A stretch of 64,000 bases of DNA from Xenococcus sp. MO_188.B8. GTDB taxonomy: Bacteria; Cyanobacteriota; Cyanobacteriia; Cyanobacteriales; Xenococcaceae. A program made the position numbers and the translations under genes. This document shows, piece after piece, positions 13,391-46,144 of this stretch. The DNA lies in contig JASJDR010000006.1 in assembly GCA_030065615.1 (NCBI GenBank), forward strand, positions 1-64,000. Direction: 5' to 3'. Positions within the stretch are counted from its first letter, which is position 1, and each line of letters begins with the position of its first letter. Under the pieces are notes generated by a model. It was not told the DNA's origin. It saw nothing but the letters and a program-made list of their open reading frames with translations, and searched no databases.

Positions 13391-13513
13391 CCCTTTTGCT
13401 CTCTTTCCCTCTTTCCCTTTTTGCAATTTTTTTTATTTATAGTATCACTATAAAAGTTTTATTATAAAATTTATCAGGTATTGTTCATTTTAACGCTCAA
13501 AAACAAAATTCCC

Positions 13514-13976
13514 ATGATAATTAATCCAGAACGGGCACCAGAAAGAAAAGGTACAAATTATCCAGAAGCATTTAAAAATTTAGTGTCGGGAAGAACCAAA
13601 AAACGTCTTGGAGATGCGGCGGGATTAAAAAATTTTGGTGTAAATTTAGTGACCTTAGAACCTGGAAGTTGGTCTTCTATTAGGCATTGGCATTCTCGGC
13701 AAGATGAGTTTATATATGTTATCAAAGGCCCAATAACTTTAGTAACCGATGAAGGAGAAGAGATGCTGCAAACTGGTGCCATGGCGGGATTTCCTGCGGG
13801 AGAAGCCAATGGACATCATTTAATCAATAATTCCAGTGCTATAGTAACTTATTTAGAAATTGGCGATCAGCCGAAGGCTGGCGCTACGCGATCGCAATAT
13901 AGGAGATCAAGTCAACTATCCTGATGCCAATTTAGTGGCAAATTTCACTGAACAAGGATGGCAATTTGGAAAATAA
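13514..13976 (+). pseudogene. Cupin-domain gene frameshifted by a 25-bp repeat
   Basis: Small cupin protein with the metal-binding motif R-H-W-H-S-R-Q-D-E-F-I-Y-V-I-K-G and a second G-A-M-A-G-F-P-A-G. The start used here is ATG 13514 (MIINPERAPE). As written the frame ends at 13924. A 25-bp insertion at 13869-13893 shifts it. Without it the frame reads E-I-G-D-R-N-I-G-D-Q-V-N-Y-P-D-A-N-L and stops at 13974-13976, the normal end for this family. The 3' third is therefore replaced by a foreign 19-residue tail. Whether that product works is unknown. Confidence 0.8.
13863..13896 (+). repeat. Single 25-bp HIP1-nested hairpin unit
   Basis: GCGATC, hairpin AGCC-GAA-GGCT, GGCGCTAC, then GCGATCGC. 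Removing 25 bp leaves one HIP1 octamer, GCGATCGC, joined to the restored cupin frame. The same unit architecture is found four times in tandem at 31617 and once as a 27-bp variant at 45588. Confidence 0.85.
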
Positions 13977-28049: not shown

Positions 28050-30539
28050 TTAGACTTTGGCTTCAAAGGCGATGCCTTCTTCGACAAAATGAGGAAAGTT
28101 GGCTCGAATATTATTGGCTTCGTCCCCTGTGGCATAAATATAAGTTCCTGGAACCAGAGAATTTTGGAACCGGAAGAAAGAAGTTTCTTCGCCCGCACCT
28201 ACCCCATAAACGTAGAAGGCAACTCCCTCTTCGATAAATTTGGGGAAGTTCGCCCGAATATTTTGGCTTTCTGGTTCTCCTGCATAGAGGTAAGTACCAG
28301 GTAAATCACTATTTTGAAAACGATTGATCTGGATTAAATCATCTTCTGGTTCATCTGCTACTTTAAATGCTTGTCCTTCTTCAGTAAAGTTGGGGAAATT
28401 CGCCCGAATATTTTGGCTTTCTGATTCTCCTGCAAATAAATAGGTTCCAGGGCGATCGCTATTTTGGAAGCGATTAATAGGAATGTCGAGCTCAGGAGTA
28501 TCTTCAAATTCCCAACGACCAACTAAACCATCATCAAGATCGACATAATAGAGATCGCCATCAGGACTTTGTACCATCTGGACTACGAACGTGGAAGCTT
28601 CGTCAAACACCTCGACATCACTAATATTTCCATCCGCATCAAAACTGATATTGCGAACAATTCCTTGACCGAGATCATTAAAGAATACATCACCTCGATA
28701 TTCTGCTGGGACAGTATTTCCCCGCAAAATATCCCCCATGACAATCGCGTTAATGCCATCAGTACCGTGGTTCAGAGCCAGAATAGGAGCGGTCGCATCT
28801 CCTCCGCTAGCGAAGAATGCTTCGGCTTCCGGTCGAGATGAATATCCTATTGTTGGAAGATTAATCCCGCTACCACCTTCATAATAGGGCCAACCAAAGT
28901 TAGCTCCTGGTGCGCCAACATTAACTTCTTCCCAAGTTCCCCAACCCACATCACCAGCATAGATTCTTCCCGTTTGCGGATCTACGTTATAACGAAAATT
29001 ATTACGAAAACCATATTGATAAATCTTCGATTGATTACTATTAGGATCGCCATCATAAAAAGGGTTACCTGGTAAACCAGCTCCCGTAATGGGGTCGATG
29101 CGTACTATCTTCCCTGAAAGGTTATCAAGTTCTTGAACTCGAAACGTACGAGGATCGAGTTGATTGAAAGAAGTACCATCCCCCATACTGAAATATAAAG
29201 CGCCATCAGGACCAAATTCTACTGAACCGACCGAATGGGATAAACTATCTGAGGCGAGGAACGAAGGTAGTTTTTCAACTATACCTCGGGCTGGAGGTTC
29301 ATCAAAATCATTCGTACTATCAACAAAAGCATTGAAATAATTCCATATATCTTCATCATATCCCTGATTATTAATACCATTACCTACAAGAACAAATTCA
29401 CTAGTAGGATCGACAGTTAAATTATCCGGGTTAACAGTAAATCTGCTAAGTCGCCCCACACGATTTCCGCCGCCATCGGGGCCAGCTAGACCAGTATTGG
29501 CATTAACTTGAGGAGGATCGTAGGTATAGGCAGCATAAAGATAAGGACTGCCATTAAAAAAGTCGGGGTGAATTGCAATATCTATGAGTCCCCGATCTTG
29601 AATGTTATTGACTTGAGCAGAAAGATCGATGGCTGGGGTTGGGTTCAATTGACCATCAGCCAAATTATATGATCTGATTACACCACCTTTCTCGGCGATG
29701 AAAATCGTTGAGCCATCAGGGGTAAAATCGAGCGCGGTGGGTTGAATTAAACCAGTAGCTAATGTTTTTTTAATCGGGCCTGGTGGTGGTGGTGGTGTTT
29801 CGGGATTGGCATTAGGACCTCCAAGTTCGATAATGCCTTGGAGTTGGGTAGTTCCTGAAACATCATCCCATGCGCCTCCAGGGCCGAAGTTCATCACCGC
29901 AAAGTCTTGAGCTCCATCAACATCATTAGGTTCTCCCGGAGTCCAGTTCGTATAGGGTGTGGCTTGACCGCTAGACCATTGAAATTGACCTTCAGTCTCG
30001 GCATCGTTGAACCCTGTCCAGAGTAGCTCACTAGCACTAAAGTTTTCTCTGAGCCAGTTCTCTTCTGCTCTGTCGCTAATGGTTACTAAATTACCGCCTA
30101 AATTTTCAGCTTCGGCTTGGGCTTCGGCCCAGGTTAAGTCTGGGGACGTGAATAAATACTGGTTGCCGTTATAGACCAAGGCATCAGGAAGAAAATCGTT
30201 ATCTTCAATCGTGATGAAGGCAGTTCTAGGAGCGCCCAGAAATGCCCCGCCAGTAACCCTGTCGATGGTAACGTTAAAGCCTTCTGAGCCTTCGGCGAGA
30301 CCATCTTCGAGAATCGGAATAGGAATAATTTTGCTGGTTTCACCATCAGCAAAAGTAGCTGTGCCACTGACTAGGGTATAGTCCTCACCTGCATTAGCAC
30401 CATTGTCTCTGGTAATATAGTCTACGGTTACTGTCCCATCACTACCGTCAGTTCTGATAATTTCGACTCCAACTTCTCCACTGCCTTCATTGGCTATAAT
30501 CTCATTTGAGTTGGGTATCAGAGAAATAGTTCCTTCCAT
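28050..30539 (-). CDS. Calx-beta / C-type lectin / sugar dehydrogenase-like protein with C-terminal repeats
   Basis: 829 residues. It has the same block order as the gene at 25339: Calx-beta (1-113), C-type lectin (about 118-240), a Pro-rich linker (E-T-P-P-P-P-P-G-P) and a GSDH-like propeller (about 258-665). Beyond it are three repeats of about 50 residues with R-F-Q-N-S-x-x-P-G-T-Y-x-Y/F-A and N-I-R-A-N-F-P-x-F-x-E-E-G-x-A-F, resembling DUF5648-type repeats. Lectin, Ca-binding and repeat modules suggest a surface or secreted carbohydrate-binding protein with possible oxidase activity. No signal peptide. It is the first gene of this tandem set. Confidence 0.88.
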   Translation of the reverse strand: MEGTISLIPNSNEIIANEGSGEVGVEIIRTDGSDGTVTVDYITRDNGANAGEDYTLVSGTATFADGETSKIIPIPILEDGLAEGSEGFNVTIDRVTGGAFLGAPRTAFITIEDNDFLPDALVYNGNQYLFTSPDLTWAEAQAEAENLGGNLVTISDRAEENWLRENFSASELLWTGFNDAETEGQFQWSSGQATPYTNWTPGEPNDVDGAQDFAVMNFGPGGAWDDVSGTTQLQGIIELGGPNANPETPPPPPGPIKKTLATGLIQPTALDFTPDGSTIFIAEKGGVIRSYNLADGQLNPTPAIDLSAQVNNIQDRGLIDIAIHPDFFNGSPYLYAAYTYDPPQVNANTGLAGPDGGGNRVGRLSRFTVNPDNLTVDPTSEFVLVGNGINNQGYDEDIWNYFNAFVDSTNDFDEPPARGIVEKLPSFLASDSLSHSVGSVEFGPDGALYFSMGDGTSFNQLDPRTFRVQELDNLSGKIVRIDPITGAGLPGNPFYDGDPNSNQSKIYQYGFRNNFRYNVDPQTGRIYAGDVGWGTWEEVNVGAPGANFGWPYYEGGSGINLPTIGYSSRPEAEAFFASGGDATAPILALNHGTDGINAIVMGDILRGNTVPAEYRGDVFFNDLGQGIVRNISFDADGNISDVEVFDEASTFVVQMVQSPDGDLYYVDLDDGLVGRWEFEDTPELDIPINRFQNSDRPGTYLFAGESESQNIRANFPNFTEEGQAFKVADEPEDDLIQINRFQNSDLPGTYLYAGEPESQNIRANFPKFIEEGVAFYVYGVGAGEETSFFRFQNSLVPGTYIYATGDEANNIRANFPHFVEEGIAFEAKV

Positions 30540-31560
30540 AGTTTAGTTCTTTATTGTCGGTAGATAGTATGTAATATGTATAGGGTTTCTTAAACTCATA
30601 AGATACAAATTTTTACCCCTGAATATATCTTGGTACGCGTTACTTAACCAAGAATTGCTATATAAATATAAAGGTTCAAAACTTCGAGCTTTCAATCAGG
30701 TAAAGTTTTGGTAAATGTTGGTACAATTATGTCAAAAGACTAAAAAATAACTAATCCGAATAAATACGGAAATTATTTGACCGCGGAATGCGGTCAGCGC
30801 AGCGGGCAGACCCCGCGTTATGCGCTTGCGAAGCTCTACCCGAAGGGGCAGCGGTATCCTTTAGGGCGGCGAAAGACCCTAAAGGACTAGCTTCGCGTCG
30901 CGCAAGGGAATGCTGCCCAAGAAAGGCTCCGTCGTCTCTTGGTGCGCGTTCCCTAGATGAGTAAAACTCATCGGGGTCGCACCGCTTTTACGTCGGAGTA
31001 CCGCGGGCTAGATTATGATCTTAAGGAGAATTAATTGAAAATTCTTAGCAGAATCAACTATTGATAAGTTAAACCGTGTCCAAATACAAAATTGAATTTT
31101 TAAAATATAATAAAGCAAAATTTTGCCTCAGTTTATCTGTATTTTCATCGACGCTTTTTCCCCCTGCCTCCGATACTTCACAACAGCGAAAATCTTAAAA
31201 ACATACCTAAAAAATTCGGGAGAAATATAGCTAGGTGGTTATAACCCCTGGTGGAATAGGAACACGAAGAATAGGACTTACAAACTTGGAATGTCTAATC
31301 CTTTTGCTAACGCCGTCATATTACTTATCTTTAAAATATTTCAGTACAACTACCGCGTGGTTTTTGCTAAGTGGTAACAAACCAGTTAATATCTTGATAT
31401 TTCCCCCTTCCGTCCTGTCAGGTTACGAAGACTCGTTGAACCAAGAATCCCCTGGATTTCTTGAGCGTCGTTTAAACGCTATCTAATGGGAAATGTCAAT
31501 TATTTCCTCTTCAACGATAAATAAATTATAATTGCTTAATAATTAGTATCATCCCTATAA
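30540..31560. other. Repeat-rich non-coding region
   Basis: About 1 kb between the lectin genes and fusA. It holds the GC-rich element at 30780-31012 and otherwise AT-rich DNA. Near 31420-31465 the string GGTTACGAAGACTCGTTGAACC followed by AAGAATCCCC resembles the tnpB end and right-end motif at the window start, so a short IS200/IS605 relic is possible. The open frame over 31235-31486 has no recognisable product. Confidence 0.4.
30780..31012. repeat. GC-rich modular palindromic element (copy A)
   Basis: About 230 bp, much richer in GC than its flanks, with the ends CCGCGG and CCGCGGGC. It contains GCAGACCCCGCGTTATGCGC, GGTATCCTTTAGGGCGGCG, CCCTAAAGGACTAGCTTCGC, GTCGCGCAAGGGAATGCTG, TCTCTTGGTGCGCGTTCCC and GGGTCGCACCGC. 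Each is shared with copy B (24057), some with copies C (22815) and D (55033). Extra hairpin modules, such as GATGAGT-AAA-ACTCATC, sit between shared blocks. No coding potential. Confidence 0.82.
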
Positions 31561-31803
31561 CCATTGAAAATACCCATAGGTATAGATGGTTAAAATATAT
31601 CCAGTTTGGGTATCCAGCGGTCAGGCTTTGCCTGTTACTGCGTGGTCTTGCAAAGCAAGGCACTACGCGGTCAGTCAAAAGCTGGCGCTAAGCGGTCTCG
31701 CAAAGCGAGGCACTACGCGATCGCAAATGTTCTTGAAATCTTACTTCAAGACAATCTTCAAACAGATCCCTTTGACGATTCGCTAAAAATTTCTAACAAT
31801 TAG
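31561..31803 (+). pseudogene. Gene remnant interrupted by a four-unit repeat array
   Basis: If the 100-bp array at 31617-31716 is removed, a continuous frame reads W-L-K-Y-I-Q-F-G-Y-P-A-I-A-N-V-L-E-I, then L-L-Q-D-N-L-Q-T-D-P-F-D-D-S-L-K and a stop at 31801-31803. This looks like the acidic C-terminal tail of a protein. No start or family was recognised. The restored junction contains GCGATCGC. Confidence 0.4.
31617..31724 (+). repeat. Tandem array of four 25-bp HIP1-nested hairpin units
   Basis: Units start at 31617, 31642, 31667 and 31692, exactly 25 bp apart, and close with GCGATCGC at 31717-31724. Each is G(C/T)GGTC, an 11-bp hairpin, then G-N-N-(A/G)-CT-(A/G)-(A/C). The hairpins are AGGC-TTT-GCCT, TTGC-AAA-GCAA, AGTC-AAA-AGCT (imperfect) and TCGC-AAA-GCGA. 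The stem bases differ between units, but three of four remain fully complementary. Confidence 0.9.
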
Positions 31804-31817
31804 CTATACAGTAAATT

Positions 31818-33908
31818 ATGAAAGACCTCACTCGTTACCGAAATATTGGCATCTTTGCCCATGTAGATGCAGGAAAAACTACCACAACCGAAAGAATTCT
31901 TAAATTAACTGGGAAAGTTCACAAAATCGGTGAAGTACATGAAGGAGAAGCCACAACTGACTTCATGGATCAAGAACGAGAAAGAGGTATTACAATTCAG
32001 TCAGCTGCTACTAGCTGTTTCTGGAACGACCATCAATTAAATATTATTGATACTCCTGGTCACGTTGATTTCACCATTGAAGTATATCGTTCCCTGAAGG
32101 TTCTTGATGGTGGAGTTGGGGTATTCTGTGGTTCTGGTGGAGTTGAACCACAATCTGAGACCAACTGGCGTTATGCCAACGATTCTAAAGTAGCTCGAAT
32201 TATTTATGTTAATAAACTAGATCGTACTGGTGCTAATTTTTACAATGTTGTTGACCAGGTCAAAGAAATTCTTGCTGCGGAACCTTTAGTCATGGTCTTA
32301 CCCATCGGGATCGAAAATGATTTCGTGGGTTTAGTTGATCTACTCACTCGTAAAGCTTGGGTATGGGACGATTCTGGAGATCCCATGAACTATGAACTTA
32401 AAGACGTTCCTGAGGATATGGTTGATGATGTCGAAACCTATCGGGAACAACTCATCGAAACTGCTGTAGAACAAGACGATGATTTGATGGAAAAATATCT
32501 CGAAGGAGAAGAATTATCCATCGAGGAAATTAAAGCTTGTATTCGTAAAGGTACTCGCGAACTTGCTTTCTTCCCCACCTATTGCGGTTCTTCCTTTAAA
32601 AACAAAGGTGTACAGTTAGTACTTGATGCGGTGGTTGATTATCTTCCTAATCCCACAGAAGTTGAGCCTCAGCCCGAAGTAGATCCCGAAGGTAACGAAA
32701 CTGGTGTTTTGGCCTATGTCGATCCAGAAAAACCCTTAAGAGCTTTAGCGTTCAAAATCATGGACGATCGCTTTGGCGCTCTTACTTTTATCCGCATCTA
32801 TTCAGGAATTCTCAACAAGGGAGAAACCATACTCAACACCGCTACGGGTAAAACAGAACGGGTTGGTCGCCTAGTAGAGATGCATGCTGATTCTCGCGAA
32901 GAAATTAGTACAGCCCAAGCTGGAGATATTGTGGCGATCGTCGGTTTAAAAAATGTCCAAACAGGTCATACTCTTTGCGATCCTAAATACCCTGCAACCT
33001 TAGAACCCATGGTCTTCCCAGATCCCGTTATTTCGATCGCGATCGCGCCTAAGAAAAAAGGTGGTTCCGAGAAAATGGGTTTAGCACTCAGCAAAATGGT
33101 GCAAGAAGATCCTTCTTTCTATGTAGAAACCGACCAAGATAGTGGTGAAACCATTATTAAAGGAATGGGTGAGTTGCACCTAGATATTAAGGTTGACATC
33201 CTCAAGCGGACTCACGGGGTAGAAGTAGAAGTTGGAAAACCCCAAGTAGCCTATCGCGAATCTATTACCAAAAAAATTCAAGATACCTATACCCATAAGA
33301 AACAATCTGGTGGTTCTGGTCAATTCGGTCGCATCGACTACACTGTTGAACCTGGAGAAGCAGGCAGCGGCTTCCAGTTTGAATCTAAAGTAACTGGTGG
33401 TAATGTTCCCAGAGAATTTTGGCCTGCGGTACAAAAAGGATTTGAGAACAGTATTGACAAAGGTGTCTTAGCAGGATTCCCCTGTGTAGATCTTAAATTC
33501 ACTCTCAATGATGGTGCTTTCCACCCCGTTGACTCTAGCGCGATCGCTTTTGAGATTGCCGCTAAAGCGGGTTACAGACAATCTATTCCCAAAGCAGGGC
33601 CTCAATTACTTGAGCCTATCATGAATGTTGATGTCTTCACTCCAGAAGATCATATGGGAGATGTCATCGGGGATCTAAACCGTCGTCGGGGCATGATTAA
33701 ATCGCAAACTACCAATCCTATGGGTGTGCGCATCAAAGCTGATGCACCTTTGAGTGAAATGTTTGGTTACATTGGTGATTTGCGTACGATGACTTCTGGT
33801 CGTGGTCAATTCTCCATGGAATTTTCTCATTATGCGCCTTGTCCCAAAAATGTTGCCGAGGAAGTAATTAAAGAAACTAAAGAACGCGAAGCTGCTCTTG
33901 CTAAGTAG
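31818..33908 (+). CDS. fusA: Elongation factor G
   Basis: 696 residues. EF-G drives ribosomal translocation and, with RRF, ribosome recycling. G1 is [11 protein letters not shown]2 includes R-G-I-T-I, G3 is D-T-P-G-H-V-D-F, G4 is N-K-L-D and G5 lies in [10 protein letters not shown]. Domains II-V are complete. It stands alone, not in the rpsL-rpsG-fusA-tuf operon, so it is more likely a second cyanobacterial EF-G paralogue than the main one. A terminator follows. Symbol by homology only. Confidence 0.93.
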
Positions 33909-45089: not shown

Positions 45090-45295
45090 AATTCTAATAT
45101 CTATCCTCTCTCAAAATTATTCTTAAAATTAAAGTTTTAAACTAGACGCAGTTTACAGTATTTTCTTGCTCTTGCTGAAACTAAAAAATCAACAGAATAG
45201 ACTTAAAACTTAAAGTCTTGCTATGATTACTTTCTGACCTTCTTTTTAGGGCGTGTAGCGTCCTTCAGGGAATTTTGAGAAACAGTATTAGTAGT

Positions 45296-46144
45296 ATGGA
45301 GCTTAATCTTGAAATAAGAGGACAAGGATATCCTATACTTTGCTTGCATGGTCATCCTGGTTCTGCTGCCAGTATGTCCGTATTTACTGATGTCCTCTCT
45401 CAAAAATATCAAACTATTGCTCCCGATCTTCGAGGATACGGTAATAGTCGTCACCGAGGAGATTTTGCCATGGAGAAACATCTAGAAGATTTGCAACAAC
45501 TTTTAGAGCAATATCAAATAGAAAATTGTTTATTACTAGGATGGTCTTTAGGTGGGATTCTCGCTTTAGAATTGGCAATTCGCGATCTCGCCAGAGGCGA
45601 GGCACTGGGTGAGCGCAATAGGTTTAGTGGTATCATTTTAGTGGCTTCAGCAGCAGCTCCCCGCAGCGATCATCCGCCCATTACCAAACAAGATTTGATT
45701 TATACGGGAATTGCGGGAATTATTAATTATCTTAAGCCTGGATGGTTGTGGAATATTAATCGTTTTGGCAAGAAATCTCTATTTCGTTATCTCATTGCCC
45801 AGCAAACTCCCGAAGCTTATCAATATTTGGCGAGTTTTGGAGTACCTGCTTATTTTAAAACTTCTGCTGCGGCAAATAAAGCTTTATCTAATGCCATTGC
45901 TCATGGTTATAATCGCCTCGAAGATCTTGAAAAAATTGAGGTTCCTTGTTTAGTCTTAGCTGGAGAATGTGATCGGCATATTACGGCTAACTCTAGTAAA
46001 AAAACGGCACAAAAGCTCAAGAATTCTCAATTTATTTGTTATCCTAATACAGCTCATTTATTTCCTTGGGAAATTCCGCAACAAGTCTTACAAGATGTTC
46101 AGGAATGGCTAATCGCTAGTAGTTTACCCTCGAATGGGGCCTAA
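45296..46144 (+). CDS. Alpha/beta hydrolase with in-frame 9-codon repeat insertion
   Basis: 282 residues from ATG 45296 (an upstream in-frame TTG at 45275 is unlikely). The oxyanion region is L-C-L-H-G-H-P-G-S, the nucleophile elbow is L-G-W-S-L-G-G with catalytic Ser near 88, the acid is in L-A-G-E-C-D-R-H and the His is in N-T-A-H-L-F-P-W. Between A-I-R-D and R-N-R-F-S-G lies a 9-residue insertion, L-A-R-G-E-A-L-G-E, coded by a 27-bp repeat. Without it the sequence reads A-I-R-D-R-N-R-F-S-G-I-I-L-V-A-S, as expected for the family. Substrate unknown. Confidence 0.87.
   Translation: MELNLEIRGQGYPILCLHGHPGSAASMSVFTDVLSQKYQTIAPDLRGYGNSRHRGDFAMEKHLEDLQQLLEQYQIENCLLLGWSLGGILALELAIRDLARGEALGERNRFSGIILVASAAAPRSDHPPITKQDLIYTGIAGIINYLKPGWLWNINRFGKKSLFRYLIAQQTPEAYQYLASFGVPAYFKTSAAANKALSNAIAHGYNRLEDLEKIEVPCLVLAGECDRHITANSSKKTAQKLKNSQFICYPNTAHLFPWEIPQQVLQDVQEWLIASSLPSNGA
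45582..45620 (+). repeat. Single HIP1-nested hairpin unit, 27-bp variant
   Basis: GCGATC, hairpin TCGCC-AGA-GGCGA, GGCACTGG and GTGAGC, then GCAATA. The inserted part is 45588-45614. Removing it restores GCGATCGC. The stem is one base pair longer than in the 25-bp units, giving 27 bp, a multiple of three. Confidence 0.85.

Follow-up and report, generated by a model that had tools for sequence, protein, structure and literature searches.

The STRR heptamers of cyanobacteria are tandem short repeats, some of which lie in stem-loops. The Rickettsia palindromic elements (RPE) are longer than 24-27 nt. They are described as ending in CGTC. The SDR5 sequences of Nostoc punctiforme, reportedly described by Elhai and colleagues in 2008, are said to share a common hairpin with compensatory changes and to be 21-27 nt in size. 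One account describes SDR5 as a very short module whose insertion point in HIP1 lies exactly between nucleotides 3 and 4 (PMC4390886). GTAG-tagged REPs have been described as dispersed short palindromes, cyanobacteria included (PMC3733652, PMC3116915).

The DNA analysed here, hereafter the window, is a 64,000-nucleotide stretch from Xenococcus sp. MO_188.B8 that holds a tandem array of hairpin units upstream of the gene for elongation factor G (EF-G). The observation of the array is real and well explained. The array belongs to a dispersed family of hairpin micro-elements with covarying stems, and it is probably a stack of four copies, of which two have decayed, of an SDR5-type element inserting into HIP1, the likeness to SDR5 being one of description and not of consensus.

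Layout of the array and the EF-G leader

The array at 31617-31716 is a head-to-tail run of four units, each exactly 25 bp long, followed by the terminal GCGATCGC (Table 1). Its identity is 0.61 at lag 25 and 0.71 at lag 50, compared to at most 0.56 for the best lag between 10 and 60 in 1000 dinucleotide shuffles. The original prediction of an exact 25-bp repeat of four units holds in both coordinates and units. The claim that three of the four stems are fully complementary holds as well; counting the constant outer C-G, units 1, 2 and 4 each have 5/5 Watson-Crick pairs, and unit 3 has three Watson-Crick pairs, one T-G and one mismatch. GCGATC had also been proposed as the joint between units. 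As the internal joints of this array read GTGGTC, GCGGTC and GCGGTC and its 5' edge GCGGTC, the 3' end is the sole true HIP1, and that part of the prediction has to be given up here.

Table 1. Coordinates of the array, the single copies and the neighbouring features in the window
Feature	Position	Strand	Basis
Unit 1: hairpin AGGC-TTT-GCCT, decayed linker GTTACTGC	31617..31641	+	25-bp register, full stem
Unit 2: hairpin TTGC-AAA-GCAA	31642..31666	+	covariance model R1 match 31642-31674, 38.8 bits, E 9e-13
Unit 3: decayed hairpin AGTC-AAA-AGCT	31667..31691	+	register only
Unit 4: hairpin TCGC-AAA-GCGA	31692..31716	+	covariance model R1 match 31692-31724, 49.9 bits, E 3e-17
Terminal HIP1 GCGATCGC, closes array	31717..31724	.	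sequence; sibling G001 has a single unit, also then HIP1
Single copy in HIP1; insert ATC...GCG 13866-13890, 25 bp	13863..13895	+	covariance model, 51.5 bits, E 8e-18
Cupin_2 ORF, C-terminal end altered by 25-bp insert	13481..13924	+	ORF, Pfam PF07883
Single copy; insert of 27 bp, at 45585-45611 for a cut at GCG^	45582..45616	+	covariance model, 28.7 bits, E 9e-9
Alpha/beta hydrolase ORF with in-frame copy	45275..46144	+	ORF, Pfam PF00561 and PF12697
Elongation factor G gene	31818..33908	+	ORF, EF-G Pfam domains
Block upstream of array, aligning in most of eight leaders	31516..31552	+	MAFFT; L026 departs

A covariance model trained on length-11 copies, with every window copy left out (the window, L011, L012 and L014 excluded), matched 13863, unit 4, unit 2 and 45582 independently, with E-values of 8e-18 to 9e-9 that are rough owing to a short calibration. 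The single copies at 13863 and 45582 thus belong to the same family, as had been proposed. In the array itself the model search succeeded in part, since unit 1 was found as the hairpin alone, in minus-strand orientation (E 0.041), and no match to unit 3 appeared in the window up to E 1. Because the model misses the full units there, units 1 and 3 are taken as decayed and rest on their register. No Rfam family matches the array in a search of 31300-32100 up to E 1; the sole match in that segment falls outside the array and below the gathering score (E 0.73).

With its end 94 nt short of the ATG, the array is probably within the EF-G leader RNA and would be transcribed with it, the upstream block at 31516..31552 probably being the promoter of the EF-G gene. 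One possibility is that the array works as a functional RNA element of the leader and regulates the EF-G gene. Such a role would fit its place, 94 nt ahead of the ATG and following a block that can be aligned across most of the leaders compared, as well as its predicted fold (z -3.3, with 1/200 shuffles as good) and the different HIP1-linked hairpin in the leader of G005. However, the sibling G001 has one 25-bp unit and then GCGATCGC in its EF-G leader (E 3e-7) versus four units in the host, the EF-G loci of six other genomes (L016-L020 and L026, from G004, G014, G007, G011, G012 and G020) gave no model match below E 0.001 in a search covering 8/29 relatives' loci, and over a hundred further copies of the family are scattered elsewhere in the genome. 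A regulatory role is therefore improbable, and the array at EF-G would be a tolerated passenger rather than a regulator.

Two neighbouring features were also recorded. The hairpin in the G005 leader (L033, 1458-1492) is that genome's own, and G005, which belongs to another genus, is without family-pattern copies. On the minus strand of the window, 28050-30539 encodes an 829-residue protein with Calx-beta, C-type lectin, glucose/sorbosone dehydrogenase and DUF5648 domains.

A dispersed family with covarying stems

The family pattern GRTC-N(7-15)-GGCRCTNCGYG demands no complementarity. It has 157 matches in the 8.26 Mb host genome and 0 for the reversed pattern, and two other family patterns have 13 and 22 genome matches versus 0 and 1 when reversed. 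The pattern is present in 29/60 genomes searched, host included, with up to 107 matches in another genome; several order-level genomes have one to three matches, no more than the reversed control. A plasmid search with a 33-bp copy returned three weak matches, in unrelated bacteria. The exact 25-bp period noted for the array does not extend to the family as a fixed unit length: the 110 host copies range over 21-27 bp, with 81 of 25, 13 of 27, 11 of 24, 3 of 21 and 2 of 23 bp.

Whether the stems covary genome-wide, as the original prediction proposed to check, can be answered affirmatively, since complementary stems exceed shuffles in both the host and G007. For this comparison the stem arms were re-dealt within length class, using 100 listed of the 157 host copies and all 60 of G007. 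Fully Watson-Crick stems occur in 74/100 listed host copies, versus a shuffled mean of 27.8 and a maximum of 40 in 2000 trials, and in 44/60 G007 copies, versus a mean of 17.1 and a maximum of 28. The excess persists with distinct middles only (25/47 fully paired; shuffled mean 9.5, maximum 18). In named genomes, a scan returning at least 99 stretches, 80 of them listed and divided by record titles into cyanobacteria and others, found the HIP1-embedded pattern fully paired in 54/61 cyanobacterial matches (57 stretches) among the matches listed. Of the matches listed from other phyla, which are to be expected by chance, 1/23 was fully paired (23 stretches).

Covariation was measured in an alignment of 86 distinct length-11 (33-nt) copies, 71 from the host and 15 from G007. 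In the two-stem structure, 94.8% of 688 cells are paired versus 77.5% when shuffled, and sliding the stem partner by 1-3 columns collapses the signal. Doubly changed cells number 119 versus 53 shuffled, counts that relatedness inflates and that are not independent events, because few stem types dominate the host copies (59/73 of length 11 carry one of four perfect stems). The positions that change on both sides are three main-stem pairs and the middle pair of the 3-bp stem CRC-TNC-GYG; the latter pair is A-T in 35 copies, G-C in 34, G-T in 1 and unpaired in 16. An alternative pairing of CRC with the 5' GYG was dropped, as 47/86 cells are unpaired at the varying pair; it is the 3' GYG pairing that covaries.

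The original prediction also offered copying that favours foldback DNA as a cause of the matched stems. Alternatively, the stems would be kept paired not by selection on the mobile form but by DNA template switching in quasi-palindromes, a process described in general terms (PMC8794818). Switching should invert loops often. Among fully paired host copies, 79 loops are purine-rich and 9 pyrimidine-rich, and no stem type has its loop in both senses; such one-handedness argues against frequent hairpin inversion in the host. The foldback proposal is not supported. In G007 the loops are balanced, 20 purine-rich to 17 pyrimidine-rich among fully paired copies, with one stem type carrying two loops in both senses, and unit 1 of the array has a loop of the other sense, with TTT in place of AAA, as switching would give. 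Taken together, template switching is an unlikely account of the pairing, and selection on the mobile form is preferred. The hairpin would be needed for mobility, as DNA or RNA.

Some arrangements in the wider family are of a different kind. In G000, each of two contigs (C60, 535-582; C128, 20360-20407) carries a pair of oppositely oriented units with an overlap of a few bases; the two hairpins are the same on both contigs, possibly one repeated locus. AGACC directly follows the unit in 6/57 copies (L003, L004, L007, L010, L078 and L085); in L003, L004, L007 and L010, the four with further sequence to compare, it continues as AGACCTTCGGTAG, and 3/4 of these run into a GGCRCT tail. The AGACC-AGACCTTCGGTAG stretch seems to be a companion hairpin module that lacks the RTC start.

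Insertion into HIP1, array growth and coding length

HIP1 is the insertion target, as backed by one clean empty site. At the place corresponding to 13863, the sibling G001 has an empty GCGATCGC and no element, between flanks 84% and 82% identical to those of the host, placing the insertion point at GCG^ATCGC, apart from the uncertainty that the repeated GCGATC leaves. From the common ATG, the cupin frame has 136 residues in the host and 146 in G001, with differing ends; removing the 25 bp in silico restores the frame, which is unbroken there in G001. The 45582 insert is in frame in the hydrolase gene, and its 27 alignment columns are gaps in 5/5 relatives compared. As 0/5 of these relatives have HIP1 at the empty site, HIP1 as the target word is not demonstrated at 45582. 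The expectation of empty sites with GCGATC therefore held at the first site and failed at the second.

Both single copies of the window (2/2) are thus absent from the orthologous places in relatives. In the reverse direction, 0/20 usable G001 copies (of 22) match the compared part of the host genome on both flanks; five match on one flank, two of which aligned and are too diverged to judge in-place stem change. Of 57 copies, 26 are followed by ATCGC and 32 have GC before them, so that the HIP1 flanks are often partial. G007 has a unit (L278, 2333-2367) just outside the hydrolase match, close to the gene in which the window has its in-frame copy.

These features are probably best explained as follows. 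The module would be a hairpin of 24-27 nt that inserts into HIP1 at GCG^ATCGC and is built of RTC, a variable stem of 4-5 bp closed by a constant C-G, a G, and the mini-hairpin CRC-TNC-GYG. Since the 3' side of the insertion would keep ATCGC beside GYG, making a partial or full HIP1, the site could take another copy, and new copies at the regenerated HIP1 would line up head to tail with a period of one unit length. Ordered pairs of unlike units could also come from repeated insertion beside the regenerated ATCGC, a direction that we infer, with the array presumably growing at its 3' end. Against the SDR5-type reading stand, among other things, the single clean empty site, the lack of HIP1 at 45582 in all five relatives, units 1 and 3, which miss the model, and the commonness of partial flanks.

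Arrays might instead arise from one inserted unit that is multiplied locally, by tandem duplication or slippage, and whose copies then diverge by point mutation and compensatory change. The array itself has features that fit such a route: its period is exactly 25 bp, units 2 and 4 differ at 3/25 positions, two of which are a compensated pair, and its 50-bp halves are 72% identical. Among the 110 host copies, however, 17 pairs are directly adjacent and 0/17 share a hairpin. Random host pairs would do so 6% of the time, so 0/17 shows no excess over chance and still counts against duplication as the main route. Moreover, 13/17 host pairs are in one order: the 5' unit ends in ACTNCGTG, the joint is GTGGTC, and the 3' unit begins with GTC and has GCTNCGCG at its end. 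Such an order would not result from copying one unit; the window array does not keep the ACTNCGTG-then-GCTNCGCG order throughout.

In relatives, 4/13 adjacent pairs among those listed share a hairpin (2/6 in G014, 2/3 in G012, 0/3 in G007 and 0/1 in G001), and therefore local duplication also occurs. A four-unit array of G014 (C59, 6429-6526) has three identical hairpins at 24-bp spacing and is likely a local duplication. The original prediction that such arrays do not reflect simple slippage is thus supported in the host and goes too far for the relatives. Duplication with later compensatory change is a doubtful origin for the array in the window. Given that adjacent hairpins differ in the host (0/17) and that 4/13 are shared in relatives, host arrays grow mainly by repeated insertion, with duplication elsewhere.

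The length of a copy is related to where it is found. The sample consisted of 110 of the 157 host copies and 43/60 of G007, taken from listings and hence not random, and copies no more than 60 bp from a locus end were set aside. A frame counted as open if, in any one of the six reading frames, it ran uninterrupted over 150 nt or more on each side of the copy, which does not prove a gene. Over both genomes, 22/47 copies with lengths that are a multiple of three are in open frames versus 1/106 of the others. The same holds in each genome, with 10/27 versus 1/83 in the host (Fisher p 2e-6) and 12/20 versus 0/23 in G007 (p 8e-6). The sole exception is the 25-bp copy L211, and two further copies, one in the host and one in G007, have a frame only with the insert left out. 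In longer host stretches, 149/269 HIP1 sites and 1145/2000 random positions are in open frames. Against this baseline, genes hold few copies, and nearly all of these keep the frame. In a set of 57 copies, the 5 that kept frames were all of 24 or 27 bp.

This coding-length filter reads as purifying selection after insertion, and perhaps insertion is in addition biased away from genes. Among the papers listed in searches on HIP1, small dispersed repeats, RPEs, STRR and template switching, some of which cite the 2008 SDR5 paper, we noticed no earlier mention of such a filter, an outcome that does not prove its absence. As a tentative extension, two partner types, ATC...CACTNCGTG and GTC...CGCTNCGCG, may insert in a fixed order and so give arrays of unlike units; and the 24- and 27-nt forms may be ready-made in-frame insertions of 8-9 residues spreading through the proteome, with the 25-nt forms confined outside genes.

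Elements of about 25 nt are among the smallest mobile DNA proposed. The family offers closely related genomes in which sites are empty, hold one unit or hold a stack, together with a chance-match control in other phyla. Sites, control and coding-length filter make the insertion point, array growth and effects on proteins directly testable, and the filter and the ordered pairs are the parts most worth following.

Comparison with known systems

Like the GTAG-tagged REPs, the present family consists of dispersed short palindromes, and the minus strand of some copies reads GTAG-YGCC-hairpin. It could be imagined that the units are such REPs moved by a RAYT transposase, as the host genome has RAYT genes over the NCBIfam cut-off and, in 1/6 RAYT regions examined, a unit is about 170 bp away. 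The base that makes GTAG is, however, present in 19/100 listed host copies and 3/60 in G007. Furthermore, no copies are present in G005, G008, G013 and G017 despite RAYTs over the cut-off, while G001, G002, G004, G006 and G014 (81% complete) have copies and no RAYT over the cut-off. The family thus has no conserved GTAG, unlike the GTAG-tagged REPs, and its copies do not track RAYT genes across these genomes. RAYT-driven movement is highly improbable.

The family resembles the RPEs in that copies are found in frame inside genes and differs from them in targeting HIP1 and in its length of 24-27 nt. Compared to the STRR heptamers, it is distinguished by a 25-bp unit with a hairpin that is HIP1-bound and mostly dispersed. 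The closest likeness is to SDR5. SDR5 is from Nostoc punctiforme, whereas the present host belongs to the Hyella/Xenococcus group and is probably not a heterocyst former. The two nonetheless agree in inserting between nucleotides 3 and 4 of HIP1, as seen here at 13863 (GCG^ATCGC) though not at 45582, in the 21-27 bp of the host copies, which matches the size reported for SDR5, and in a hairpin kept by compensatory change, as seen in the host family. Recent mobility is a further shared feature, both single copies of the window being absent from the orthologous places in relatives.
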